Source: Olsenella profusa DSM 13989 (GTDB lineage: Bacteria > Actinomycetota > Coriobacteriia > Coriobacteriales > Atopobiaceae). From it: DNA of 64,000 nucleotides. The translations under genes were made by a program, and so were the position numbers. The DNA lies in the NCBI RefSeq assembly GCF_030811115.1, contig NZ_JAUSQK010000001.1, positions 1,426,001 through 1,490,000 on the forward strand, in the 5' to 3' direction. The notes beneath the pieces are model-generated. The model saw nothing but the letters and a program-made list of their open reading frames with translations, ran no database searches and was not told where the DNA came from. Below, piece after piece: positions 27,138 through 39,740 of the stretch (its first letter is position 1; the number at the start of each line of letters is the position of its first letter).

Positions 27138-28598
27138 ATGAGCATTGGCAGAGCCGTGGAAGGCCGTAGGCAGCGCAAGCTGTTTCTCACGCGCAAGGAC
27201 ACGTCTGCGCTCACGCACATTGCCGACGCCTATCCCATGCCGTCGGAGGGGTTGGGTCGCCCGCCCGAGTCCGATCAGCTCTACGAGGGCATGCAGAACA
27301 TGGATCGCGTGCCCGACCAGCTCTATGAGGAGCGCAACGTCAAGCGCGGCCTGCGCAATGCGGATGGTTCGGGCGTGCTGGTGGGCCTCACCACCATCTC
27401 GGACGTCCATGGCTACACCAGGGTGGACGGCAGGGTCGTCCCGGATGAGGGACAGCTGAGATACCGCGGCTATACGATTGACGACCTGGTACGAGGCACG
27501 CACGATGCGGGTCGCTTTGGCTATGAGGAGGTTGCTTACCTGCTGCTTTCCGGCTCGCTCCCCACACGGCCGCAGATGGATGACTTCCGCGCGCGCATCG
27601 GTGTCCGTCGCCAGCTGCCCGAGGGCTATCTGGACATCTTCCCGCGCACCACCTACAGCCATTCCATCATGAACGTCCTGCAGCGCGCGACGCTTTTGCT
27701 CTACGCCTTCGATCGCGACCCGGACGACACGGCTCCCACACACGAGATCGACGTGGCACTCTCCCTCCTGGGTCGCTGGCCGCGTGCCGCATCCATTGCG
27801 CATCAGGCCTATGTCGCCGAGCAGGAGGGCACGCGCCTGCGCATCCCGCCCGCACGCGAGGGCTACACCATGGCCGAGACGATCCTGGATGTCATCCATG
27901 CCGACGAGGGCTTCTCGCGCGAGGAGGCCATGCTGCTCGACGTCATGCTCATGCTGCATGCGGAGCATGGTGGTGGCAACAACTCCACGTTCTCATGCCG
28001 CGTGCTCTCGTCCTCGGGAACCGATGCCTACAGCACCTATGCGGCGGCCCTGGGATCGCTCAAGGGGCCTCGGCACGGTGGTGCCAACGCCAAGGCCGGT
28101 GCCATGATAAATGACATCGCCGGCAACGTGCGCGACTGGACGAGTGACGACGAGGTGGCGGGGTATCTCGCGCGCATCCTCAGGGGCGAGGCCTTCGACC
28201 ACTCGGGCCTCATCTATGGCTTGGGCCATGCCGTCTATACCGTGACCGACCCACGCGCCGAGATCGTGAAGGCCTATGCCCATGAGCTTGCCGAGAAGAA
28301 GGGTCAGCTGGACAAGCTCGAGCTCATCGAACGCGTAGAGCGCCTGGGGCCGAAGGTCATGCGCGGTGTGCGTCACATCACCAAGCCCATCTCCACCAAC
28401 ATCGACATGTATACGGGCTTCGTATACTCCATGCTGGGGATTCCGGAGGATCTCTACACGCCGCTCTTTGCACTCGCGCGCTCCGCGGGCTGGGCGGCTC
28501 ACCGCATGGAGGAACTCTATGGACCGGCACGCATCATCCGTCCCGCGTACAGCACCTATATGGATGACCGCCCCTACGTTCCCATCGAGGAGCGCTAG
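27138..28598 (+). CDS. Citrate synthase (citrate/2-methylcitrate synthase family)
   Basis: 486 residues. GQLRYRGYTIDDL is the N-terminal family signature. The catalytic His of the AEHGGGNNSTFSCR block, the second His in YGLGHAVYTVTDPRAE and the C-terminal substrate-binding region (WAAHRMEEL) are present; the catalytic Asp region was not pinned down. It condenses acetyl-CoA with oxaloacetate, or possibly propionyl-CoA. The protein has a 60-residue N-terminal extension compared with compact bacterial types. No other TCA gene is nearby, so it probably feeds 2-oxoglutarate/glutamate synthesis in a fermentative cell. Its stop codon overlaps the convergent regulator's stop in a shared CTAG. Confidence 0.9.
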   Translation: MSIGRAVEGRRQRKLFLTRKDTSALTHIADAYPMPSEGLGRPPESDQLYEGMQNMDRVPDQLYEERNVKRGLRNADGSGVLVGLTTISDVHGYTRVDGRVVPDEGQLRYRGYTIDDLVRGTHDAGRFGYEEVAYLLLSGSLPTRPQMDDFRARIGVRRQLPEGYLDIFPRTTYSHSIMNVLQRATLLLYAFDRDPDDTAPTHEIDVALSLLGRWPRAASIAHQAYVAEQEGTRLRIPPAREGYTMAETILDVIHADEGFSREEAMLLDVMLMLHAEHGGGNNSTFSCRVLSSSGTDAYSTYAAALGSLKGPRHGGANAKAGAMINDIAGNVRDWTSDDEVAGYLARILRGEAFDHSGLIYGLGHAVYTVTDPRAEIVKAYAHELAEKKGQLDKLELIERVERLGPKVMRGVRHITKPISTNIDMYTGFVYSMLGIPEDLYTPLFALARSAGWAAHRMEELYGPARIIRPAYSTYMDDRPYVPIEER

Positions 28599-29494
28599 AT
28601 GCATCCCCCCTGCAGGGGATCAAGCTGTTCCGAGTAGTCTGCTTTCGTTGTTGCGATCGCCTGACGCATCTTGTGCAGAGTCTCGGACACCTGGGGCAAC
28701 CTGAACATCACTGCGGTGTAGAGCGTGTCGACCAGAGCAAGCTGGGAAATGCGGCTTGAGAGCGACTCAGAGCGATAGCCTGTCTCGTCCGAGATGGAGA
28801 CGAGGGCCACATCCGCATTGTCTAGGAGCTTGCTCGAGGGATAGCTGGTGATTACAATTGTGTGCGCGCCGGCGCCCTTTGCGATGGCAGAGAGATGAAT
28901 CATCTCTCTGGTGAGTCCTGTATGGCTGATGATGATGGCACAGTCATCTGGCCCCATGACGGATGCCTGCATGAGCTGCAGATGATAGTCCTGGGCGAAC
29001 TGCGAACGAAGGGGGGAGCGGAGAAACTTCTGGTAGGCATCGTAAGCGACCGCATTTGACTCTCCGCAGCCATGGAACGACACCCTCGTAGACGCCAGGA
29101 GGATATCAATGGCGTTCGACATCGCCTTGGGATCCTGAAGGCGCAGCGTGTCCTCGAGAGATTTGATGCTCGACTGGAACACGTGTTGAGTTATGGTCGA
29201 GATATCGTCATCCGGGCATATGTTCTCGTGAACGGACGTCTGCGGATCGTAAGCGTCGGCGAGTAAGTCGTCGCGAAAGTCTCTGAACCCCTGGTAGTCC
29301 AATCGCTTGGCGAACTTGAAGATGGTTGATTCTGCGAGTCGAAGCTTCGAGGCCATCTCGCTGATCGTCATGCGAGAGGCTTCGACCGGGTTGTCAAGGA
29401 TAAACCGGGCGATTTTCTGCTCCTTCGGTGTGAAAACTGACGAAGAAGACTTGATTTTGAGAAGCACTGCCGGGGCTGCACTCATCGTGCTCAT
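28595..29494 (-). CDS. MurR/RpiR-family transcriptional regulator
   Basis: 299 residues. N-terminal RpiR helix-turn-helix (FTPKEQKIARFILDNP, MASKLRLAESTIFKFAKRLDYQGF) and a C-terminal SIS sugar-phosphate-binding domain (VSFHGCGESNAVAYDAYQKF, GPDDCAIIISHTGLTREMI, VITSYPSSKL). It is transcribed divergently from gnd and the PTS operon across a 224-base AT-rich region with a 19-bp tandem repeat, so it very likely controls that operon in response to a phosphosugar intermediate. Start ATG 29494 or 29485; neither has a strong ribosome site. Confidence 0.9.
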   Translation of the reverse strand: MSTMSAAPAVLLKIKSSSSVFTPKEQKIARFILDNPVEASRMTISEMASKLRLAESTIFKFAKRLDYQGFRDFRDDLLADAYDPQTSVHENICPDDDISTITQHVFQSSIKSLEDTLRLQDPKAMSNAIDILLASTRVSFHGCGESNAVAYDAYQKFLRSPLRSQFAQDYHLQLMQASVMGPDDCAIIISHTGLTREMIHLSAIAKGAGAHTIVITSYPSSKLLDNADVALVSISDETGYRSESLSSRISQLALVDTLYTAVMFRLPQVSETLHKMRQAIATTKADYSEQLDPLQGGCI

Positions 29495-29538
29495 CCAATC
29501 TCAAAAAAACGTTGTTTTTACTAAAGCCAATTATAGAA

Positions 29539-29576
29539 ATGATCGGCTGGTTATTAAATGATTGGCTGGTTATTGT
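29539..29576. promoter_or_regulatory. 19-bp tandem direct repeat, candidate RpiR operator
   Basis: ATGATCGGCTGGTTATTAA (29539-29557) is followed directly by ATGATTGGCTGGTTATTGT (29558-29576), 16 of 19 identical, in the divergent region between the RpiR-type gene and gnd. The surroundings are very AT-rich, including a near-palindrome AAAAACGTTGTTTTT at about 29506-29520. Confidence 0.55.
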
Positions 29577-29718
29577 CAGAAAGACCAATACCGCAAATTG
29601 AAACAAAAAATTTCGACATTAAAGCTACAAATTAGAAAAAAATAGTCTAGAATAAGACGAGCTTTAAGAGTTCCTGTGTATTGCGTTGTCCAGAGAAGTC
29701 TCTTGAAAGGGGAGTGCT

Positions 29719-31152
29719 ATGGGCAGTTATGTCGGCGTAATCGGCATGGGGGTCATGGGACAGAGCTTGGCGCTCAACATAGCTAACCATGGCTATACTG
29801 TCTCGGTTTACAACCGTCACGGCGAGGCTACCAAGGACTTCATGGAGAGTCGCGTCAAGACACAGAAGGATAAAGTCACCGCCGTATACGAGCTCAAGGA
29901 CTTCGTTGACTCGCTTGAGGCTCCCCGCAAGGTTATCCTCATGGTCAAGGCAGGACCTGTGGTCGACGCAGTTGTCGACAGCCTTCTTCCCTTTCTCAGC
30001 GAGGGTGACATCGTTATCGATGCCGGCAACTCCTATTACAAGGACACGAGCCGTCGTATGGCGGACTATGCCAAGAAGGGAATCAGCTTCTTCGGTATGG
30101 GCGTGTCTGGAGGCGAGAAGGGCGCCCTCGTCGGACCGTCCATCATGCCCAGTGGCGACAAAGAGCTTTATGACAACTACCTCAGTAAGCTGCTGACCGA
30201 CATCTCGGCCCATACCGATGACGGCAGCCCCTGTTGCGACTACATCGGCCCGGAGGGCTCCGGCCAGTATGTCAAGATGGTGCATAATGGTATCGAGTAC
30301 GGTGATATCCAGATCATCGACGAAGCATACTTCATCATGAAGAACGTGCTTGGCATGAGCAACGCCGAGATGGCGGACATCTTTGAGAGCTGGAACAACG
30401 GCCGCCTGGACTCCTTCCTGATAGAGATAACCTACAAAATTCTTCGCGAGAAGGACCCTGATACGGGCGATGACCTCATCGACCACATCTTGGACGAAGC
30501 GGCCCAGAAGGGTACGGGCATGTGGACGGCAATTGAGGGCCTCGAGATGCACCTGGCCATTCCTACCATGGCAGAGGCTGTTTTCGCACGTAACCTATCG
30601 GCCGTGAAGGACGAGCGCGTCATTGCCTCCAAGGTATTCACTGACAAGCCCGTCGTGAGTGTCGAGGACAGGGGGGCACTGCTCGTAGATCTTGAGCAAG
30701 CTGTATACGCGAGCAAGATTATGTCCTACGCGCAGGGGTTCCAACTCTTGAACAGGGCATCCCACGAGCATGGCTGGAACCTCAAACTTGGAGACATCGC
30801 CCTGCTCTGGCGCGAGGGCTGCATCATCCGCGCGAAGTTCCTCGGCCGTATCAAGGCGGCATACGATCAAAGTGACGGTAAGGTTCAGAACCTCATGCTC
30901 ACCGATGAGTTCCGTGACGAGATTAAGATGTCCGTGCCTGGGTGGCGTCGCGTGGTAGTCAAGGCAATAGAAGCTGGCGTCTATGCTCCGACCCTTGCCA
31001 ACTCCCTCATGTATTTCGATGGCTATACGTGTGAGTTCCTCTCCGCCAATCTTTGTCAGGCACAGCGGGACTGGTTCGGGGCTCACGCCTATCACCGTGA
31101 CGACCAGCCTCACGATCTCTCCTTCCACCATAAGTGGGAAGAGCTGGACTGA
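29719..31152 (+). CDS. gnd: 6-phosphogluconate dehydrogenase, decarboxylating
   Basis: 477 residues, full family length. Rossmann motif VGVIGMGVMGQSLALNI with an NR pair (VYNRHGE) after beta-2, suggesting NADP preference; IDAGNSYYKDT, GMGVSGGEKGALVGPSIMPSG and catalytic KMVHNGIEYGDIQ (Lys and Glu/His of the active site); C-terminal RDWFGAHAYHR. It oxidises and decarboxylates 6-phosphogluconate to ribulose-5-P. It is the first gene of the PTS operon (AAGGGGAG site), not with pentose-phosphate genes, indicating a dedicated role in breaking down an imported sugar acid. Codon use is AT-richer than the flanking core genes. Confidence 0.93.
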   Translation: MGSYVGVIGMGVMGQSLALNIANHGYTVSVYNRHGEATKDFMESRVKTQKDKVTAVYELKDFVDSLEAPRKVILMVKAGPVVDAVVDSLLPFLSEGDIVIDAGNSYYKDTSRRMADYAKKGISFFGMGVSGGEKGALVGPSIMPSGDKELYDNYLSKLLTDISAHTDDGSPCCDYIGPEGSGQYVKMVHNGIEYGDIQIIDEAYFIMKNVLGMSNAEMADIFESWNNGRLDSFLIEITYKILREKDPDTGDDLIDHILDEAAQKGTGMWTAIEGLEMHLAIPTMAEAVFARNLSAVKDERVIASKVFTDKPVVSVEDRGALLVDLEQAVYASKIMSYAQGFQLLNRASHEHGWNLKLGDIALLWREGCIIRAKFLGRIKAAYDQSDGKVQNLMLTDEFRDEIKMSVPGWRRVVVKAIEAGVYAPTLANSLMYFDGYTCEFLSANLCQAQRDWFGAHAYHRDDQPHDLSFHHKWEELD

Positions 31153-31190
31153 ACAGAGCAACCTTCGTCGAGAAAAATGGGAGCAGACAG

Positions 31191-31634
31191 ATGCTTGAGA
31201 ACTGGTTGAATAAAGAGTGTATCGCCCTGAATGTTGATGCCCAGGATTGTCGTCAGGCAATACAGGTCGGTGGAGACCTCCTTGTTGCAAATGGAAAGGC
31301 AGAGAAATCATTCGTTGCTGCCATGATTGATGCTGTTACCGAATTAGGGCCGTACATGGTTGTCGCCCCTGGGATTGCGATTCCCCACGCACGTCCCGAA
31401 AGTGGTGCCAAGGCAGTTGCCCTCAGCCTGGTGACATTAAAAAATCCGGTTAGCTTTGGCAATCCGGAAAATGACCCCGTGTGGCTCGTGACCTGCCTGT
31501 GTGCATTGGATTCGGAGTCACATATCGAACTCCTGCAGCGCCTTGTAAACCTCCTTGCTGACGATGAAGCGGTGAGTCAGATAAGAAATTCTAAGGATAT
31601 TGAATATGTTATGAATTTGATTTCAAAGTATTAG
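31191..31634 (+). CDS. PTS EIIA component, fructose/mannitol-ascorbate type
   Basis: 147 residues from ATG 31191. PTS_EIIA_2 fold with the phosphorylatable histidine in APGIAIPHARPESGA. The VLAKNPVSFG-like segment (LKNPVSFGNPENDPV) and terminal helix match UlaC/SgcA-type proteins. It receives phosphate from HPr and passes it to the IIB protein encoded 50 bases downstream. Frame is open upstream to 31134, overlapping gnd, but the ATG at 31191 has GGGAGC upstream and fits the family start. Confidence 0.9.
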   Translation: MLENWLNKECIALNVDAQDCRQAIQVGGDLLVANGKAEKSFVAAMIDAVTELGPYMVVAPGIAIPHARPESGAKAVALSLVTLKNPVSFGNPENDPVWLVTCLCALDSESHIELLQRLVNLLADDEAVSQIRNSKDIEYVMNLISKY

Positions 31635-31683
31635 GGAGGAGGAATTAAACCCGCTGGTGCACATCCGAGCAAAGGAGAGATTC

Positions 31684-31983
31684 ATGGGAAAGAGATATAG
31701 CATCACCGCACTCTGTGGCATGGGGCTTGGCACGAGTAGTCTTGCTCGCATGGCAATCATGGATTATGCCAAGAGCCGTGGAATTGATGCGAACGTGACC
31801 GTCGCTGACATTGGTAGCGTCAAGGGAATCACGAGCGACATCATCATAACCACTAAGAGTATGGCGAGCCATATTCCCAACTCTGTGAGCGAGCAATCCA
31901 CCGTCATTCTCGTTACGAACCTCATCAAGAAGGATGAAATCAACTCGAAGTTGGACGAGTACTTCTCCTCAATCAGCTCATAG
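31684..31983 (+). CDS. PTS EIIB component, ascorbate type
   Basis: 99 residues. The phosphocysteine lies in the opening loop ITALCGMGLGTSSLARMA (Cys about residue 11), as in UlaB/SgaB. Rest is a small alpha/beta fold with SDIIITTKSMA and VILVTNLI strands. Strong AAAGGAGAG ribosome site. Relays phosphate from EIIA to the sugar bound by the IIC component encoded next. Confidence 0.9.
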   Translation: MGKRYSITALCGMGLGTSSLARMAIMDYAKSRGIDANVTVADIGSVKGITSDIIITTKSMASHIPNSVSEQSTVILVTNLIKKDEINSKLDEYFSSISS

Positions 31984-32023
31984 CGCATCTTATGTCCGAG
32001 CGAACTCACTTAAAGGAGTAGCC

Positions 32024-33328
32024 ATGGAATTGCTTAGCAGTGTTGGTAACTTCATTATTTTTCAAATACTCGATCAGGCACCTATTTTCCTTGGCCTCAT
32101 CACCCTCGTGGGTATGCTTCTCCAGAAATCCAAGGGGTCCGAAATCTTTGATGCCGTCATCAAGACCGTTGTTGGCATGCTTATTCTGAGCGCAGGTGCC
32201 AACCTCATTTCTGGAACCATCACTCCGGTCATGCAGCTTCTCAATAATGTGGTCGGCGTCAGCGGCGTCATGCCCATGAACGAGGCTGCTTTCGGTGTTG
32301 CCATGGCATCAATGGCTGAAACCGCCGTGACCATCTTTGTTTTCGGCTTCCTAATCCATCTTGTCCTTGTTTATCTCATTCCCAACAAAGGCATGAAGAA
32401 TGTGTACCTCACGGCGCACATGATGCTCTACCTTGCCATCTTCCTGGCCCTTACTGTGAATTCCACGCTAGGTATCGAGGATATCCCTCTGATTGTCGTT
32501 TCTTCTGTCCTCGCGGCGCTTTATTGGACGTTCACGCCTGCGATTCCGCGCGCCCTTGGTAAGAAGTACTTCGGTGAGGACTTTACCCTGGGTCATGCCC
32601 AGCAGTTCGGCACCCTTATCGGCGCTCTCTGTGGCAAGCTATTCAAGAGTCGTGCCGAGGAGGAGGATGCTGACAATATCGTTCTTCCCGGTGGCCTCTA
32701 TCTTTTCCAGGACGTAACCCTGGCGCTCTCCCTCATCATGCCTATCCTTTTTGTGATTATCGGTGTGGTGGTTGGCGAGGATCAGGTCATGACTCTTGCG
32801 GGTACCCAGAACTGGATCATCTTCCTCCTGATGCAGGGCCTTCAGTTCGCCGCTGGCGTTGCGGTAATGCTCTATGGAGTGCGCATGTTCTTGAACTCAA
32901 TCATTCCTGCCTTCAAGGGTATTTCCGAGAAGCTCATTCCTAACTCGGTTCCTGCACTTGACTGTCCCGTCTTGTACCCTTACAGCCCTTCTGGCGCAAT
33001 GTTCGGCTTCCTGGGCTCCATTCCCGCAGGTATCCTCGTGTGCCTGCTTACGGTTGTACTCGGCTCCTCGGTAGTCGTCTTTCCAAGTCCCATCATCCTC
33101 TTCTTCGATGGGTGCACCATCGGCGTGTTTGGTAACAAGTATGGTGGTTGGAAAGGTGCGCTATTGGGTGGTTTCGTCTCCAGTCTTATCGCACACTTTG
33201 CCATTATTCCGCTGTATCCAATGATGGGCTCTCTCTTTGGCTCTGGTCTCATGTTTAGCAACATCGACTATGCGGTTCTCTGGTTGCCTCTCCTTCTTAT
33301 CTTCAAGTTTATCGGTAGCCTCATCTGA
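32024..33328 (+). CDS. PTS EIIC component, ascorbate-type (UlaA/SgaT family)
   Basis: 434 residues from ATG 32024 (AAAGGAG upstream), about ten membrane spans. Family features: FLGLITLVGMLLQKS near the N-terminus, NNVVGVSGVMPMNEAAF, VLVYLIPNKGMKNVYLTAHMM, PNSVPALDCPVLYPYSPSGAMFGF, and GCTIGVFGNKYGGWKG. It forms the membrane channel of a phosphotransferase importing L-ascorbate in characterised cases. No UlaG-type metallo-beta-lactamase lactonase, UlaD, UlaE or UlaF gene is present, so the substrate may be a different sugar acid or lactone. Confidence 0.9.
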   Translation: MELLSSVGNFIIFQILDQAPIFLGLITLVGMLLQKSKGSEIFDAVIKTVVGMLILSAGANLISGTITPVMQLLNNVVGVSGVMPMNEAAFGVAMASMAETAVTIFVFGFLIHLVLVYLIPNKGMKNVYLTAHMMLYLAIFLALTVNSTLGIEDIPLIVVSSVLAALYWTFTPAIPRALGKKYFGEDFTLGHAQQFGTLIGALCGKLFKSRAEEEDADNIVLPGGLYLFQDVTLALSLIMPILFVIIGVVVGEDQVMTLAGTQNWIIFLLMQGLQFAAGVAVMLYGVRMFLNSIIPAFKGISEKLIPNSVPALDCPVLYPYSPSGAMFGFLGSIPAGILVCLLTVVLGSSVVVFPSPIILFFDGCTIGVFGNKYGGWKGALLGGFVSSLIAHFAIIPLYPMMGSLFGSGLMFSNIDYAVLWLPLLLIFKFIGSLI

Positions 33329-33368
33329 CTGAGGCCCTGTCGACGCGATGCTTGAGCGGAGGGTGACC

Positions 33369-34337
33369 ATGAGATATGTCCAAACAGTTCTCGGGAAAGT
33401 GCCAGTTGATGACCTCGGAATGACAGATGCCCATGACCACCTCATTCGTGTTGGTGGCGTCGAGGTGATTAGTAATGGTTCTGACTTTGAAATGACTGAC
33501 GAAAGCAAGGCGCTAGAGGAACTCGAACTGTTCAAGGCGGTGGGCGGAAACATGCTGGTCGAGATGACCCCCATCGGCAGTGGCAGATCGATTGAAAACC
33601 TGAGGTCCCTCAGCCGCGAGTCAGAGGTGAATATCCTAGCAACGACGGGCTTTCACAAGTCAGAGCTCTATGATAAGTCTCACTTCTTGTGGAAATATGA
33701 CCGAGACACACTTGCTCAACTCCTGATCGATGATGTGACTCAGGGCATAGACATTTACGACTATGCTGGTCCAGTCGTAAAGCGCTCAGAGGGCAAAGCC
33801 GGACTTATCAAGGCAGCCTGTAGCCTTCAGAGTATCACATCGATTGAGAAAAAGGAGCTTGAGGCAGCAGCGCTTGCCTCAAGTGAGACGGGCGCACCAA
33901 TCTCCCTTCATCTTGAGAAGGGAACCATGGCGCTTGAGGCGATTGATATCCTCATGAGTAATGGGGCTAGCCCCGACAGCATCATTCTTGGCCACATTGA
34001 CCGCAATCCCGACCTCTACTACCACAAAGCGGTAGCTGAGAGGGGAGTGTTCCTGGCCTACGACGGTGCCGCGCGGGTCAAGTACTACACGGATTCCGTG
34101 ATAGTCGATCTGTACAAGAACATGATTGACCTAGGCTTTGAGGATCAGCTTCTGATGGGTGCAGACCTCGGTGGAAAATCCTATTTCAGGGCATACGAAG
34201 GTGGTCCGGGGCTGGGTTACAACTTCGGCACCTTCGTTCCAAGGCTGGTTGACTGCGGCGTGCCTGAGGAAGTTGTGCGCAAAATCACAATTTACAACGC
34301 TAGGAACGCCTTCTGTAACAAGAGATACGAGATTTAG
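33369..34337 (+). CDS. Phosphotriesterase-family hydrolase, predicted sugar-phosphate lactonase
   Basis: 322 residues from ATG 33369 (GGAGGG upstream). Amidohydrolase barrel: HxH metal site in TDAHDHL, VEMTPIGSGR, KAGLIKAAC (bridging Lys region), ISLHLEKG, ILGHIDRNPD and a late Asp in LLMGADLGG. COG1735 members characterised in Mycoplasma and Listeria hydrolyse phosphorylated sugar lactones rather than phosphotriesters. Sitting directly after the PTS genes, it is the likely lactonase for the phosphorylated import product, taking the place that UlaG fills in ascorbate operons. Confidence 0.82.
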   Translation: MRYVQTVLGKVPVDDLGMTDAHDHLIRVGGVEVISNGSDFEMTDESKALEELELFKAVGGNMLVEMTPIGSGRSIENLRSLSRESEVNILATTGFHKSELYDKSHFLWKYDRDTLAQLLIDDVTQGIDIYDYAGPVVKRSEGKAGLIKAACSLQSITSIEKKELEAAALASSETGAPISLHLEKGTMALEAIDILMSNGASPDSIILGHIDRNPDLYYHKAVAERGVFLAYDGAARVKYYTDSVIVDLYKNMIDLGFEDQLLMGADLGGKSYFRAYEGGPGLGYNFGTFVPRLVDCGVPEEVVRKITIYNARNAFCNKRYEI

Positions 34338-34384
34338 CCCTTCAAGCTTGCCCTGCAAGATATCGCAGAGAGAGACTGGGATTC

Positions 34385-35359
34385 ATGAACTATCAAATTG
34401 CGATCGTTAATTCATCTTCTTTTGGCCAGTACTATCCAGAACATTTGAAGAGGTTGGAAAAGATTGGCCAGGTGGCGTATGTGTGCATCGCCGGAGACGC
34501 CCATGGGCGTGAGCTTGCCGACGCTCTTAAGGGCTTCAATATGGTCATTTCGTCCGTTACCCCATTTTTTGATGCTGAGTTCTTCACGCACAAGACAGAT
34601 CTTCTTCTTCTGAGCAGGCATGGCATTGGGTTCAACAATGTGGATGTTATTGCCGCAAAGAGAGCTGGTACTTTGGTGACGACCGTCTCTCCGAAAGTCG
34701 AGCGCAGTGCGGTCGCGGAAGGTGCTATCGCAACGCTGATGGATATCATGCGGAGGGTCAGCGATTCTCATATTGCGGCAGACGAAGGTCGGTGGGCTGA
34801 CAGAGCCAATTTCATTGGGTCAGGTCTAAGCGGAAAGACACTTGGCATCATCGGCTGTGGCAACATCGGCTCTCGTGTGGTCGAGATTCTGAGCCGTGGT
34901 TTTGACATGCATGTTCTTGCCTGCGATCCTGTCCAGCATGAGATGTGGGCTGACGTTCTCGGTGTGAGGTACTGTAGTCTCGATGAAACTGTCTCTCATT
35001 GTGATGTGCTCACGCTCAACGCCGATCTCAATGAGAGCTCCTATCACATTATCAACGAGCGGACTCTGTCGCTTATGAAGAAGGGGGTTTATATTGTTGA
35101 CAATGCCCGAGCTGACCTCATTGATCAGGAGGCGATGCTGAGGGCACTTGATGACGGTACCGTTGCCGGTCTCGCTCTTGATGTCATGCATGATGAACCA
35201 CCGGCATCGGACGACCCCTACTTTAAGCATCCAAAGGTTCTGGTTACAACACATATTTCTGCATACACCATGGAGTGCCTGTATGGAATGGGCGAGAAGT
35301 GTGTCAGCGATGTTGAGAGATTTGTACAGGGAAAAGCTCCTGTTAACGCAAGAAACTAG
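34385..35359 (+). CDS. D-isomer specific 2-hydroxyacid dehydrogenase
   Basis: 324 residues. Nucleotide-binding motif LGIIGCGNIGSRVVEIL with an acidic residue after beta-2 (LACDPVQ), favouring NAD; LSRHGIGFNNVDV substrate loop; catalytic Arg in DNARADLID, Glu in DVMHDEPP, His in LVTTHISAYT. Possible activity: reduction of a 2-keto-aldonate phosphate, as with 2-ketogluconate-6-P reductases, which would produce 6-phosphogluconate, the substrate of Gnd in the same operon. This assignment is inference from context. Last gene of the AT-richer operon. Confidence 0.85.
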   Translation: MNYQIAIVNSSSFGQYYPEHLKRLEKIGQVAYVCIAGDAHGRELADALKGFNMVISSVTPFFDAEFFTHKTDLLLLSRHGIGFNNVDVIAAKRAGTLVTTVSPKVERSAVAEGAIATLMDIMRRVSDSHIAADEGRWADRANFIGSGLSGKTLGIIGCGNIGSRVVEILSRGFDMHVLACDPVQHEMWADVLGVRYCSLDETVSHCDVLTLNADLNESSYHIINERTLSLMKKGVYIVDNARADLIDQEAMLRALDDGTVAGLALDVMHDEPPASDDPYFKHPKVLVTTHISAYTMECLYGMGEKCVSDVERFVQGKAPVNARN

Positions 35360-35391
35360 AGTAGATTTCTTGTTAGTTTAAATGTCGATGG

Positions 35392-35433
35392 CTGCCCATC
35401 TGCTTCTTTGGGCAGAGGAGGAATCGTTTTTTT
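35392..35433 (+). terminator. Hairpin with distal T-run after the first sugar operon
   Basis: CTGCCCA (35392-35398) pairs with TGGGCAG (35409-35415), followed eleven bases later by a run of seven T. Termination is plausible but the gap between stem and T-run is long. Confidence 0.4.
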
Positions 35434-35504
35434 GTGTACAGAAAAAAATTCTTGTCTATATCTATATTAAAAAAATAATTAGTTATACTTTGCTCGTACA
35501 CAAA
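35431..35504 (+). promoter_or_regulatory. Paired GTAC operator-like sites around a promoter
   Basis: TTTGTGTAC at 35431-35439 and its exact inverse GTACACAAA at 35496-35504 bracket an AT-rich segment holding a TATACT -10-like hexamer (35484-35489). The half-sites resemble operators of GntR/FadR-type regulators. They lie 29-100 bases before the aldolase start, so they likely control the second sugar-acid operon. No GntR gene is in the window. Confidence 0.5.
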
Positions 35505-35532
35505 GGGGTTTCGAAAGAAGTGAGGGGGACCG

Positions 35533-36195
35533 ATGTCTAGTTCAGAATACATGAGGGAAAACGGCTTTTACGAGGACGTAGCCCGATGTGGCGTGATGCC
35601 CGTCGTGGTGCTGGACGACCCAACCGATGCCGTTCCTCTGGCCCGCGCACTCGAGGAGGGCGGGCTTCCTGCGGCAGAGGTGACGTTCAGAACCGATGCG
35701 GCACCAGAGTGCATCTCTCTGATTGCCCATGAGTACCCGAACGTCCTGGTCGGCGCAGGCACCGTCCTAGACCTTGAACAGGCAAAGCGTGCCGTTGACG
35801 CGGGGGCAAGGTACATCGTCTCACCTGGCACGGATTGTGATGTCGTCGAGTGGGCCCTCTCCGAGCGCGTGAACGTTATTCCTGCCGGCGTCACGCCTAC
35901 CGAGGTCACCTGGTTGAGGAATCAGGGGATCGAGGTCTCTAAGTTCTTCCCGGCGAACCTCTTCGGAGGCGTAGAGGCGATCTCTGCGCTTGCTTCGGTT
36001 TTCGTCGGACACAGGTTCATGCCCACGGGTGGTGTGAACTTGGACAACCTTGGAGAGTACCTCTCCAATCCTGCGGTGATCGCAGTGGGAGGCACGTGGA
36101 TGGTTAAGCCGACCTTGTTCGCGGGCGGAGACTTCGACGAGGTGGAGCGCATTGCGAGAGAGGCGTCGGAGAGAGTGTCAGAGATTCGCCTCTAG
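35533..36195 (+). CDS. eda: KDPG/KHG aldolase (2-keto-3-deoxy-6-phosphogluconate aldolase family)
   Basis: 220 residues, GAGGGGG site upstream. Eda signature elements: GVMPVVVLDDP, AEVTFRTDAA (catalytic Glu), VGAGTVLDLEQAKRAVDAGARYIVSPG, and the Schiff-base lysine in EVSKFFPANLFGG; PTGGVNLDNLGEYL binds phosphate. It cleaves 2-keto-3-deoxy-6-P-gluconate to pyruvate and glyceraldehyde-3-P. It opens an operon of five genes for sugar-acid breakdown. GC content is visibly higher than in the preceding PTS operon. Confidence 0.92.
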   Translation: MSSSEYMRENGFYEDVARCGVMPVVVLDDPTDAVPLARALEEGGLPAAEVTFRTDAAPECISLIAHEYPNVLVGAGTVLDLEQAKRAVDAGARYIVSPGTDCDVVEWALSERVNVIPAGVTPTEVTWLRNQGIEVSKFFPANLFGGVEAISALASVFVGHRFMPTGGVNLDNLGEYLSNPAVIAVGGTWMVKPTLFAGGDFDEVERIAREASERVSEIRL

Positions 36196-36246
36196 GGGTT
36201 TTGAGGGACTTCTGTCGGACTTACCGTGCGGATGGAGATGAGTGAC

Positions 36247-37344
36247 ATGGCAAGCAGCACGACCGAGCTGGATACCGCTATCAAGTTTGGGGCAGGCAGG
36301 TATCGTCAGGAACGGGGTTTGTTGGCGGAGTGCGGTTCCGAGATCGCCCGATTCGGAAAGCGCCCCCTCGTTGTCGCGGGCCCCAACTCCTGGGAGGTGA
36401 TGGGAGACTCCCTGATGCTCAGCATGGAGGGGGAGGGGCTCCAGCCTCAGGTGGAGGTCTATGGGGGATGGTGCTCCTTCGAAGGTGCCGAGGAGCTTGC
36501 CGAGAAGGCAAGGCAGTTTGGCGCTGACGAAATCGTCGGCGTGGGAGGCGGAAAGATCATGGACCTCGCCAAGGCCGTCGGCGAGACTGCGGGTCTGGGA
36601 ACGGTGAACATCCCCACCGCCGCCTCAAGCTGCGCCCCTTTCACCTGCATGAGCGTCATGTATACCGCCGAGGGCGGAAAGAAGCTCAGCTGGCGCTTCG
36701 ACCATGAGATCGATGCCTGCCTGATGGACATGGACGTCATCGCGAACTGCCCCATCCGATTTACCGCCGCCGGCATCGTCGATGCGATGGCCAAGCGCAT
36801 CGAGATGCTGAACGGAAAGCCCTCCCTCAGCCTGTCGGACACCCCCGTTGACATCTTCAGCGCCTACAGCATCGCTGAGTACACCTATGGGGCTCTCAGG
36901 GACAACGCCCTCGTGGCCATCGAGGACAACCGTAGGCACGAGGCAACTAAGGCGCTCAATGACGTGGCGTTCATGAACGTTCCCATTACGGGCGTTATCG
37001 CGAACACTACGAAGAGCTTCAAGCAATCCGAGCTCGCCCATGTCATTTATGACGGAGTGAGGACCATCTTTACCAGTGAGGGCCAGAAGGCCGTTCATGG
37101 AGAGATCGTTGGAGTCGGGCTCTTCTGCCAACTCTACTTCAATGACCAGCAGGACCAAATGCAGGAGCTTCGGGAGTTCATGCATGCGATGGATATGCCC
37201 CTTAGCTTCGATGACCTGGGGATCGAGTCGAGCGATAAGAACCTTGACTCCATCGAGGAGTACATCGTCAACTCGAGGCACTACAACAGTGATGACCCAG
37301 ATGATCGCCGTCGCCTTCACGAGGCCGTACACCAGATGGCCTAG
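36247..37344 (+). CDS. Iron-containing/glycerol dehydrogenase-family oxidoreductase
   Basis: 365 residues from ATG 36247 with GGAG nine bases upstream; in-frame ATGs at 36232 and 36238 and GTG at 36226 are alternatives. GldA-type fold: ADEIVGVGGGKIMDLAKAVGE nucleotide loop, IPTAASSCAPFTCMSVMY, and metal ligands Asp in AGIVDAMAKRIE, His in SELAHVIYDG and His in QKAVHGEIVG. It likely interconverts a polyol or 2-keto/hydroxy group using NAD. The substrate in this operon is probably a sugar-acid intermediate. Confidence 0.85.
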   Translation: MASSTTELDTAIKFGAGRYRQERGLLAECGSEIARFGKRPLVVAGPNSWEVMGDSLMLSMEGEGLQPQVEVYGGWCSFEGAEELAEKARQFGADEIVGVGGGKIMDLAKAVGETAGLGTVNIPTAASSCAPFTCMSVMYTAEGGKKLSWRFDHEIDACLMDMDVIANCPIRFTAAGIVDAMAKRIEMLNGKPSLSLSDTPVDIFSAYSIAEYTYGALRDNALVAIEDNRRHEATKALNDVAFMNVPITGVIANTTKSFKQSELAHVIYDGVRTIFTSEGQKAVHGEIVGVGLFCQLYFNDQQDQMQELREFMHAMDMPLSFDDLGIESSDKNLDSIEEYIVNSRHYNSDDPDDRRRLHEAVHQMA

Positions 37345-37385
37345 ACTTGATGACCTAGGGATTTGGCTGGCGAGAGGGGAGTACG

Positions 37386-38225
37386 ATGACCGAAATGCCG
37401 CGAATGGTCTTCTGTGATTTGGACGGCACCCTTCTCGATAGCGATAAGAAAATGAGCGACCGTACCCGGAGGGCCTTGCGGGTGCTCGCCAGGTGCGGCA
37501 TCGGCTTCGTTCCGAGCACAGGCCGTTCCGTAGTGGGCATTCCGCGAGAGGTCATCGAACTCTCTGGTGCTTGCTATGCGATTACGGCCGATGGGGCCAC
37601 GGTCTGTCGGCTTACCTCCGATGGACACGTGGATCTCCGCGTCAGCACGATTCCGCAGGATGCGGTTATCGGTCTCCTGAACCTCGTTGACCCCTCTCCC
37701 TCGTACATCGATCTCTTCAGCGAGGGAGAGGCATACGTTGAACGAGGGAAGATGCGCAAGCTCGACAGCTTCGGACTACTGCCTGGCGACGTGGCGTATA
37801 TCCGCTCCGTCCGTCATGAGATTGACGTAACTCTGGCGGACTTCGTGGCCGAGGGGCGTCCCGTCGAGCGACTTACGGTCTTCTATGCGGATGAGGCTAT
37901 ACGTGATGCTGTCTATGACTACTTGCAAGAAAGGGGGGACTTAGCCTGCTACACCTCTCAGCGGAGGAACATCGAGATTACGAGTGCCACTGCTAGCAAG
38001 GGCAGTGCGCTGCTCTGGCTCTGTGACCATCTTGGTATATCCGCAGGAGAGACCATCGCGTTCGGCGACTCCCTGAATGACGTCTCAATGCTCAGGGAGG
38101 CCGGAGTCGGTGTTGCCATGACCAATGCGGAGGAGAGGGTAAGGCGCCAGGCAAACGATGTCACCCATCTTACCAATAACGAATCCGGTGTTGCTGAGTA
38201 CCTCGAGAGGTTCCTGCCGGCCTAA
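37386..38225 (+). CDS. HAD-IIB (Cof-type) phosphatase
   Basis: 279 residues, GAGGGGAG site. HAD motif I FCDLDGTLLDSD, motif II STGRS, motif III lysine in ASKGSAL, motif IV FGDSLNDVSML. A C2B cap sits between motifs II and III. Removes phosphate from a sugar phosphate; its place between the dehydrogenase and dehydratase genes suggests it removes phosphate from a pathway intermediate or a dead-end by-product. Confidence 0.88.
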   Translation: MTEMPRMVFCDLDGTLLDSDKKMSDRTRRALRVLARCGIGFVPSTGRSVVGIPREVIELSGACYAITADGATVCRLTSDGHVDLRVSTIPQDAVIGLLNLVDPSPSYIDLFSEGEAYVERGKMRKLDSFGLLPGDVAYIRSVRHEIDVTLADFVAEGRPVERLTVFYADEAIRDAVYDYLQERGDLACYTSQRRNIEITSATASKGSALLWLCDHLGISAGETIAFGDSLNDVSMLREAGVGVAMTNAEERVRRQANDVTHLTNNESGVAEYLERFLPA

Positions 38226-38275
38226 TCAGAGGAGACCCTGTTGCCTAGGTCGCATCACGTTAAAGGAGGCCAACC

Positions 38276-38569
38276 GTGTCCTGCAAAGCGCTCCGCCTGC
38301 ATGAGGAGGATGACGTCGCCACCTTGCTTTCGGACGTCGCTGAGGGCGATCACGTCGTTGTGGAAGACGATGCTGGCAGATGCGTGTGCGACCTCGTATC
38401 CCATGATTCGATTGGCGCCTTCCATAAGATTGCCCTGCATCCCATTGGTGCATGCGAGGTAGTCCACAAGTATGGGGAGGCGATAGGCAGGGCCACCGAG
38501 GACATCCTTCCCGGCAGCCACGTCCACGTGCACAACCTGGAGAGTATAAGGACGAGGAAGCATGATTAG
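38276..38569 (+). CDS. UxaA-type sugar-acid dehydratase, small (SAF-domain) subunit
   Basis: 97 residues with a GTG start behind a perfect AAAGGAGG site. It is a SAF domain as found at the N-terminus of altronate and galactarate dehydratases: DVATLLSDVAEGDHVVV, HKIALHPI, VHKYGEAIGRATEDILPGSHVHVHNLE. The two subunits are separate genes here, overlapping by eight bases, instead of one UxaA chain. Confidence 0.88.
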   Translation: MSCKALRLHEEDDVATLLSDVAEGDHVVVEDDAGRCVCDLVSHDSIGAFHKIALHPIGACEVVHKYGEAIGRATEDILPGSHVHVHNLESIRTRKHD

Positions 38570-39740
38570 CGGATACCTTCGCCCCGATGGCAGGATGGGA
38601 ATCAGGAACCACGTGCTTGTCCTCTCGAGTGTGGGCTGCGCCAACGCCGTGGTGCGGCGCATATCCCAGCAGGTCGAGGGGGTGGTGGGCGTCGAGAACA
38701 CCAAGGGTTGCGGTCAGGTGGGCAAGGGCATCGAGACCATGCGGCGCAGCCTTGTCAACCTGCCCCAGAACCCCAACGTCTTCGGGACCCTGATCGTGGG
38801 CCTAGGCTGCGAGAGCACCAGGCCGTTGGATCTTGCCGAACAGATCTCACGTATGAGCGACAAACCCATCCGTGCCATCATCATCCAGGATTGCGGTGGG
38901 TCGCTGGGGGCCATTGAGGAGGGCGTACGGGCTGCACGTGAGCTAGTTGCGCATGCCGCTCTGGTCCAGCGCATTCCAATGCCTCTGGACAAGCTGGTTT
39001 TGGGGACAAACTGTGGTGGCTCGGACGCCACGAGCGGTTTGGCTGCAAATCCCACGATTGGTCTCGTGAGCGACTGGGTCATCAATGGCGGCGGTACGGT
39101 CCTCATGGGCGAGACGACCGAGCTGATAGGGGCGGAGCACATCCTTGCGCACCGAGCCGTTACCAAGGAGGTCGCCAGCGACATCCTGAGGATGGTAGAT
39201 CATCTTGAGGAAGACTTCCTCTCCAACGACATAGACGTGCGTGGCGCAAACCCCTCGCCTGGAAACATGCGGGGCGGCCTGTCGACGCTCGAGGAGAAGT
39301 CGCTGGGTGGCATCTCCAAGGGTGGCAGCCACCCCATATCGCAGGTGGTCCGATACGGAGAGGTGCCCTCCAAGAGGGGCTTCGTCCTCATGGATACCCC
39401 GGGCTACGATATCGAGTCGGTCTCGGGCATGTCTACCGGGGGAGCCCAGGTCATGCTTTTCTCCACAGGCAGGGGTACCCCGATAGGTAACCCCCTCATG
39501 CCCGTGATCAAGGTGACGGCCAACGCCTGGACCTATCGGCGCATGAGGGATAACGTCGACTTCGACGCCTCGGGCGTCATCACGGGTCTTGCCACGATGG
39601 AGGAGCAGGCCGCTTTGCTCAGGGGTATGCTCGTGAATGTCTGCAACGGAGAGCTCACCAGGGCCGAGGCTCTTGGTTTCGATGACTTCACCATCTACCA
39701 TGGGCAGGAGTACTGGTGCAGTTGTGAGTTTGAGTCATAG
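38562..39740 (+). CDS. UxaA-type sugar-acid dehydratase, large catalytic subunit
   Basis: 392 residues. Family landmarks: GYLRPDGRMGIRNHVLVLSSVGCAN, NTKGCGQVG, GLGCES, QDCGG, LGTNCGGSDATSGLAANP, MGETTELIGAEH, DTPGYDIESVSGMSTGGAQVMLFSTGRGTPIGNP. Conserved cysteines in these motifs bind the active-site iron. Characterised members dehydrate altronate or galactarate to 2-keto-3-deoxy acids. No KDG kinase is encoded in the window, so in this locus it may act on an already phosphorylated aldonate to feed the aldolase directly. Last gene of the operon. Confidence 0.9.
   Translation: MISGYLRPDGRMGIRNHVLVLSSVGCANAVVRRISQQVEGVVGVENTKGCGQVGKGIETMRRSLVNLPQNPNVFGTLIVGLGCESTRPLDLAEQISRMSDKPIRAIIIQDCGGSLGAIEEGVRAARELVAHAALVQRIPMPLDKLVLGTNCGGSDATSGLAANPTIGLVSDWVINGGGTVLMGETTELIGAEHILAHRAVTKEVASDILRMVDHLEEDFLSNDIDVRGANPSPGNMRGGLSTLEEKSLGGISKGGSHPISQVVRYGEVPSKRGFVLMDTPGYDIESVSGMSTGGAQVMLFSTGRGTPIGNPLMPVIKVTANAWTYRRMRDNVDFDASGVITGLATMEEQAALLRGMLVNVCNGELTRAEALGFDDFTIYHGQEYWCSCEFES

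Follow-up and report, generated by a model that had tools for sequence, protein, structure and literature searches.

What does the gut-type bacterium Olsenella profusa DSM 13989 take up and degrade by means of a gene cassette in which an ascorbate-type phosphotransferase system (PTS) stands beside a 6-phosphogluconate dehydrogenase and a two-subunit enzyme of the UxaA dehydratase family? The twelve genes in question (28595-39740) lie between the genes of citrate synthase and a Kup-type transporter in the window analysed here, a stretch of 64,000 nucleotides (G000:C1:1426001-1490000) within the complete 2.62-Mb genome. The cassette may import a six-carbon ascorbate-like lactone, most likely D-erythorbate (D-isoascorbate), to which we assign a probability of roughly 0.4; we infer the substrate, the regulation and all of the reactions from sequence comparisons. 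Erythorbate, a stereoisomer of vitamin C and a food additive, is the enediol gamma-lactone (1,4-lactone) of 2-keto-D-gluconate.

Gene content and predicted reactions

The cassette plausibly comprises two transcription units under a divergent RpiR-type regulator (28595-29494, reverse strand; HTH_6 PF01418, 2e-17; SIS PF01380, 1.8e-15), the basis for the division being an AT-rich gap of 173 bp that separates the 2-hydroxyacid dehydrogenase gene from eda. Unit 1 encodes Gnd, the EIIA, EIIB and EIIC components of the PTS, a COG1735 protein and a D-2-hydroxyacid dehydrogenase (DHR), and unit 2 encodes Eda, a GldA-like dehydrogenase, a HAD-IIB phosphatase and the small and large UxaA-family subunits, all on the forward strand; the G+C content is ~50% in unit 1, ~60% in unit 2 and 60-64% around unit 1. 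Profile searches of the window's proteins recovered in place, and far above cut-off, every gene and family that an earlier sequence-only reading of this DNA had listed for the cassette.

In the proposed pathway, the PTS would import erythorbate and phosphorylate it at O6. Its EIIA (31191-31634; PTS_EIIA_2 PF00359, 5e-34) is of the ascorbate type, with a best NCBIfam match, PRK10372, that is below cut-off; EIIB (31684-31983) matches PTS_IIB (PF02302), and EIIC (32024-33328; EIIC-GAT PF03611, 1.7e-94) is a member of the ascorbate-type family. The COG1735 protein (33369-34337; PTE PF02126), a predicted lactonase of the phosphotriesterase (PTE) fold, would hydrolyse the 1,4-lactone-6-phosphate to 2-keto-D-gluconate-6-phosphate, in tautomeric exchange with 3-keto-D-gluconate-6-phosphate, and the dehydrogenase (34385-35359; 2-Hacid_dh PF02826, 1.2e-51), a putative 2-ketogluconate-6-phosphate reductase, would reduce C2 to give 6-phosphogluconate. 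Two outlets are proposed from there: Gnd (29719-31152; 6PGD; TIGR00873, 643 bits versus an equivalog cut-off of 427) would yield ribulose-5-phosphate, CO2 and NADPH, and the UxaA pair would dehydrate the phosphorylated aldonate to 2-keto-3-deoxy-6-phosphogluconate (KDPG), from which Eda (35533-36195; KDPG/2-keto-4-hydroxyglutarate aldolase, TIGR01182, 215 bits versus a cut-off of 156) would form pyruvate and glyceraldehyde-3-phosphate, an Entner-Doudoroff route without Edd.

The rest of the genome bears on both outlets. Gnd is the sole 6-phosphogluconate dehydrogenase (a single PF00393 match) and Zwf was not found anywhere in the genome; therefore, Gnd does not belong here to an oxidative pentose-phosphate pathway from glucose-6-phosphate, and its assignment as a plain pentose-phosphate enzyme was dropped. 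The absence of Edd noted in the sequence-only reading extends to the whole genome, of which the only ILVD_EDD protein is IlvD (766 bits versus a cut-off of 618; 275 versus 708 with the edd model). Its claim that 2-keto-3-deoxygluconate kinase is missing needs a qualification, in that no such kinase proper is evident and the source genome has two weak PfkB matches (26-27%); as KdgK gave zero matches in Olsenella G204 and in three relatives with related clusters (G177, G254, G161), use of this kinase by the cassette was likewise dropped. No kinase, and hence no KguK, was detected among the twelve cassette genes. The reported absence of UlaG, UlaD, UlaE and UlaF holds for the cassette but not for the genome, where a separate ula operon (~G000:C1:602-609 kb) has UlaA-, UlaB-, UlaC-, UlaE-, UlaF- and UlaG-like genes (UlaG: 577 bits, cut-off 306).

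The reading frames of the small UxaA subunit (38276-38569; SAF domain, PF08666, 28.8 bits versus a cut-off of 21) and the large one (38562-39740; GD_AH second and C-terminal domains, PF20629, 5e-90, and PF04295, 1.7e-38) overlap by 8 bases. Their SAF and GD_AH domains place the split pair in the UxaA/GarD family, and the score with the galactarate dehydratase equivalog TIGR03248 is below its cut-off (225 versus 731 bits). Given that Eda is present, that Edd is absent from the genome and that the four genomes named above lack KdgK matches, the simplest reading, with about an even chance of being correct, is that the pair dehydrates a phosphorylated aldonate to KDPG; alternatively, a dephosphorylated route may pass through the HAD phosphatase. 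The large subunits linked to PTS genes constitute one clade (support 99/100), found with three types of PTS and no kinase, in which Lys48, adjoining the invariant Gly49-Cys50, is also invariant; the residue is not lysine in ten of ten other large subunits, and Lys48 is a candidate phosphate contact.

The best solved relatives of the COG1735 protein are 3msr/3ovg, a Mycoplasma phospho-furanose lactonase, and 3pnz. The window protein keeps the ligands of the binuclear metal centre of the PTE fold (HxH, Lys, two His and Asp), and of the phosphate site it keeps the Lys and Tyr of KYY and a later Tyr, with one Lys replaced by Arg and one Arg by Gly, the ligands being those reportedly listed in a 2014 Biochemistry paper. 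A ten-residue insert, YxYxGPVVKRS, is common to the window, Olsenella G204, O. phocaeensis and Mycoplasma proteins and missing from those of Listeria and genome G236; the cut-off of NF045706, the model for COG1735 phospho-furanose lactonase, was missed (260 versus 630 bits). Mesomycoplasma hyorhinis (L035:5995-12868) and G236 (L038:9367-14669) have COG1735 genes beside an ascorbate-type PTS, UlaD, UlaE and UlaF, and no UlaG. Because COG1735 replaces UlaG in these operons, their gene content suggests that the "phospho-furanose lactonase" acts there in vivo on L-ascorbate-6-phosphate.

Related clusters and the choice of substrate

In a phylogenetic tree, the EIIC of the window belongs to a clade separate from UlaA proper (support 100/99), and it is not orthologous to UlaA, since it is the UlaA-like protein encoded elsewhere in the genome that clusters with E. 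coli UlaA. Of the eleven ascorbate-contacting residues listed for UlaA (PMC6048161), the window EIIC keeps only five (H135, H194, D314, I358 and F362). Its changes include T86N, Y87E, Q139Y, Q195A and M410N, and T86N, Y87E/D, Q139Y/F and M410N are common to the EIICs of the window type (type B), of the operons called type A below and of a Salmonella plasmid. The ascorbate site is altered, with its core kept. All members of the clade except that of G261 are accompanied by a lactonase gene, and the clade is associated with decarboxylases of the D-ribulose-5-phosphate type, namely a 477-residue Gnd, a 300-residue Gnd or the HUMPS protein of Salmonella. G261 (L239:6582-10885) has an EIIC of the same clade (46% identical), a second EIIA/EIIB as well as a PRD-like regulator, and no lactonase was found nearby.

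Type A operons, found in four genomes that each represent a different genus (G293, G236, G175 and G172), consist of RpiR, Gnd, EIIA/EIIC/EIIB and UlaG (545 bits versus a cut-off of 306), and lack DHR and UlaD/E/F. Their EIICs are 48-50% identical to that of the window, and their Gnd is of the 477-residue form in G293 and of a 300-residue NAD type in the other three. UlaG would here give 3-keto-D-gluconate-6-phosphate, which is known as the enzyme-bound intermediate of Gnd and which Gnd could decarboxylate without net redox change.

The closest outside relative of the window EIIC (52%) is encoded on the Salmonella Typhimurium conjugative plasmid pZ1323HSL0061-4 (L033:9238-15216) in the order IIA-IIB-IIC-HUMPS-UlaG-PRD regulator, with no UlaE or UlaF. 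With the 3-hexulose-6-phosphate synthase model, the HUMPS protein reaches 162 bits (below the cut-off of 200), versus 76 and 61 with UlaD-type models, and it has Ala at the position of the UlaD Thr in the VTGG motif. Hexulose-6-phosphate synthase makes or uses D-ribulose-5-phosphate, whereas the product of UlaD is L-xylulose-5-phosphate. The plasmid operon is predicted to yield D-ribulose-5-phosphate, possibly from erythorbate, as would the sister operons of this EIIC clade in general, whether they combine UlaG with Gnd or with HUMPS. This version of the EIIC is absent from the E. coli genomes searched, and a phylum-wide search with it matched, among 396 genomes, only the window's own.

Type C clusters share with the cassette a core of DHR, the UxaA pair, Eda and the GldA-like enzyme, and have no lactonase; a mannose-type PTS lies between gnd and the dehydrogenase gene, at the very position that the ascorbate-type PTS and COG1735 occupy in type B. 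In G177 and G254 they comprise Eda-GldA, RpiR, Gnd, mannose-type PTS IIC-IID-IIA-IIB (read in G254), DHR, HAD-IA, an unnamed protein and the small and large UxaA subunits. G157 resembles them, except that the stretch read there showed no DHR; near the G161 cluster lies a short Gnd-like gene; and five Collinsella-like genomes (G275, G024, G226, G120 and G094) have the type C set with no Gnd within the stretches read. The DHR of type B groups with that of type C in a tree, and between DHR and eda of Olsenella G204 there is a fossil, a single reading frame that joins the start of the HAD-IA gene to the end of the unnamed (DUF) gene (scores of 101 and 126 versus shuffle maxima of 46 and 39). The Olsenella type is therefore descended from a C-like ancestor, and most likely arose by a transporter swap in which the lactonase arrived with the new PTS. 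The shared core includes the GldA-like enzyme and DHR but not Gnd, so the UxaA/Eda branch may be the more ancient, main route.

Further versions combine the same families differently. An operon of G155 consists of Gnd, a mannose-type PTS and RpiR, with no reductase. The E. faecium plasmid pVB3378_p4 (L206:7079-10277, L207:9977-15404) carries RpiR-Gnd-DHR-GldA-like-mannose PTS-UxuA-HAD, so that DHR adjoins Gnd. A Leuconostoc citreum plasmid (L205:903-8698, L208:13733-18189) carries a GPH symporter, tagaturonate epimerase, UxaC, a DHR of the same type and an FGGY kinase, together with Eda and an NAD-type Gnd, a possible hexuronate route to 6-phosphogluconate. G222 and G128 (L198:5713-13397, L199) have an EIIC-GAT-family PTS followed by a 2-hydroxyacid dehydrogenase, a UxaA pair, a GldA-like enzyme and a second 2-hydroxyacid dehydrogenase, adjoining DgoA-like aldolase and IlvD/EDD-family genes. 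Several Coriobacteriia clusters (L042:3827-11771, L044, L046-L049) combine COG1735 with a 2-hydroxyacid dehydrogenase and a DgoA-like aldolase. L042 also has a PTS, an IlvD/EDD protein and what appears to be a dehydratase of the enolase superfamily; gene content of this kind suggests another PTS-fed sugar-acid route.

From these comparisons the substrate can be narrowed. If transporters were exchanged at the same position, the product of the lactonase should equal the free acid phosphate delivered by the mannose-type PTS. That acid would be a 2-keto acid, because a 2-hydroxyacid dehydrogenase reduces it, and would have the D-gluco configuration, because the route ends at 6-phosphogluconate or ribulose-5-phosphate (two kinds of Gnd and a hexulose-phosphate-synthase-like decarboxylase). 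The lactone would be an enediol rather than a plain aldonolactone, because the beta-keto-acid decarboxylase of Salmonella implies a 3-keto acid. D-erythorbate is therefore the best-fitting substrate, and what the sequence-only reading had left as a 2-keto-aldonate or lactone is reduced to the lactone of 2-keto-D-gluconate.

Weighing the alternatives

Several observations weigh against erythorbate. It is mainly a food additive, with no established natural source in gut or rumen. Two positions in the substrate site (His194 to Phe, and residue 195) distinguish the EIICs of type A from those of the window type. DHR is of the right superfamily for a 2-ketogluconate-6-phosphate reductase and is not specifically closer to 2-ketogluconate reductases, scoring better as a phosphoglycerate-dehydrogenase type. 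In E. faecium, UxuA (mannonate dehydratase) takes the place of the UxaA pair, so that the aldonate there may be another one or may have been dephosphorylated. The GldA-like iron-dependent alcohol dehydrogenase (36226-37344; PF00465, PF13685) is kept at 52-93% identity in related clusters, and HAD genes, here of Cof-type HAD-IIB (37386-38225; Hydrolase_3; TIGR00099, 140.6 bits versus a cut-off of 137), accompany nearly all versions of the cluster, yet both are superfluous in the scheme; the type C HAD weakly matches models of 6-phosphogluconate phosphatase, and the GldA-like enzyme is perhaps a 5-keto-hexonate-6-phosphate reductase. Of the pathway first drawn from the sequence alone, the progression from PTS through lactonase and dehydrogenase to 6-phosphogluconate and Gnd is supported, as is the UxaA pair with Eda as a second outlet, and these two proteins are left without a job. 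Finally, the closest assayed COG1735 enzymes, from Mycoplasma, use D-xylono- and L-arabino-1,4-lactone-5-phosphate (PMC10971088).

An alternative substrate, though an unlikely one, would be plain D-glucono-1,4-lactone, which the PTS and lactonase would convert directly to 6-phosphogluconate for Gnd and the UxaA pair with Eda, leaving DHR to serve a second substrate such as 2-ketogluconate-6-phosphate. Gnd does anchor both type A and the window type, type A needs no reductase, and the reductase-free operon of G155 resembles a gluconate operon; however, the dehydrogenase is a core gene, type A retains a lactonase of the ascorbate family (UlaG), and the HUMPS decarboxylase that accompanies UlaG in Salmonella needs a beta-keto acid.

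Two further schemes, both improbable, find work for the GldA-like enzyme, and the first of them also for the HAD phosphatase. If the lactone were a pentono- or other aldono-lactone-5-phosphate, as the assayed COG1735 relatives would predict, the UxaA pair would dehydrate a pentonate-5-phosphate, Eda would release pyruvate and glycolaldehyde phosphate, and the HAD and GldA-like enzymes would reduce the C2 aldehyde, glycolaldehyde reductase being the second-best score of the latter; but Gnd, by its 643 bits a 6-phosphogluconate enzyme, would then have no substrate, and the UlaD/E/F operons of Mycoplasma and G236 suggest ascorbate-6-phosphate for COG1735 there. Alternatively, the core might use a diketo acid, for instance 2,5-diketo-D-gluconate, in type C and a related lactone in the window, with DHR reducing C2 and the GldA-like enzyme reducing the C5 ketone beside CH2-O-P to give 6-phosphogluconate. 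Both dehydrogenases would be accounted for together, and the GldA-like protein has a match to Fe-ADH_2, to which glycerol-1-phosphate dehydrogenase belongs, an enzyme that reduces a ketone in just that position, but no natural gamma-lactone of 2,5-diketogluconate is known for an ascorbate-type PTS to import, and type A lacks both dehydrogenases despite its sister EIIC.

It is very unlikely that the cassette is a second L-ascorbate transporter and route, as its ascorbate-type EII and the replacement of UlaG by COG1735 in ula-like operons might suggest: the Ula genes whose presence elsewhere, with a PTS responding only to ascorbate, would by the sequence-only reading have refuted its model do exist, but with a UlaA of their own, so that this refutation does not hold cleanly, the window EIIC is of a distinct clade with the five ascorbate-site changes given above, and by established pathway chemistry the C5 stereochemistry of the L series would lead to L-idonate-6-phosphate, which is not a substrate of Gnd.

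Conservation, regulation and comparison with known systems

Conserved co-occurrence of both operons, set beforehand as a test, is borne out by an identical order of the twelve genes in three Olsenella genomes, the source included (45-96% protein identity), and is far from chance. O. phocaeensis has 80-96% identity to the window and matching flanks, and Olsenella G204 has 45-87% identity and different flanks; O. phocaeensis was the sole match when genome contigs were scanned with the COG1735 protein. The cassette appears strain-variable, as the lactonase is missing from G170, another genome of the species. Directly after citrate synthase, G170 (L240:14451-19861) has a cassette in which a fructose-type PTS is combined with a short Gnd-like gene; because a different cassette occupies the same site, this site looks like a slot that exchanges sugar cassettes.

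RpiR, of which orthologues (44-60% identity) adjoin the sister operons, would control both units. Operator-like sites on the forward strand lie upstream of gnd (ACAAAAAATTTC, 29603-29614, weak alone at p=0.29) and of eda (GAAAAAAATTCT, 35441-35452, p=0.015); the motif GAAAAAAATTTC has three matches in the 64 kb versus 0.33 expected, two of which precede the two operons. The motif AGAAAAAAATTTCT precedes many operons of all types and gives weak support, because it is AT-rich and significant in just ~12 of 19 upstream regions. A promoter and terminator scan gave no signal above shuffles, and an Rfam scan of 28-40.5 kb found zero RNA elements.

It is somewhat doubtful that this is the first bacterial pathway of erythorbate catabolism, formed by swapping a lactone PTS and a lactonase into a cassette of 2-ketogluconate type, with a two-subunit UxaA-family enzyme replacing Edd on 6-phosphogluconate. 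The open-access literature held no paper on bacterial PTS-linked catabolism of erythorbate or isoascorbate, on ascorbate, Gnd, lactonase and PTS together, or on a UxaA-family 6-phosphogluconate dehydratase, each a weak negative, as subscription papers fall mostly outside this scope. If the proposal is correct, it would explain genetically how gut bacteria can use a common food additive, and it would assign a function to a clade that is sister to the vitamin C transporters. The UxaA family would gain a likely new activity, that of dehydrating a phosphorylated aldonate, and Gnd would have a use independent of glucose-6-phosphate where Zwf is missing.

The enzymes are from known families, and the scheme recombines known logics. 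Like E. coli ulaABCDEFG, the cassette has an EIIABC of the same family, a lactonase for a 1,4-lactone-6-phosphate and a proposed pentulose-5-phosphate product, but it has COG1735 in place of UlaG, Gnd in place of UlaD/E/F, and an additional outlet through the UxaA pair and Eda. As in the Kgu pathway of Pseudomonas (KguT/K/E/D), a 2-hydroxyacid dehydrogenase would reduce 2-ketogluconate-6-phosphate to 6-phosphogluconate, except that phosphorylation would be by a PTS rather than a kinase and the substrate would enter as a lactone. The lactonase resembles Mycoplasma MS53_0025 (3msr/3ovg) in its fold, metal ligands, VVKRS insert, most phosphate-site residues and an adjacent ascorbate-type PTS, whereas its identity to the Mesomycoplasma protein is ~39%. 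Eda and the proposed KDPG intermediate recall the Entner-Doudoroff pathway (Edd and Eda), but with a UxaA/GarD-family pair as the sole dehydratase of the cassette in place of Edd. The mannose-type PTS clusters of Collinsella-like genomes and E. faecium share DHR, the GldA-like enzyme, HAD, RpiR and the UxaA pair (UxuA in E. faecium), and differ from the cassette in their PTS, in having no lactonase and in not always including Gnd.

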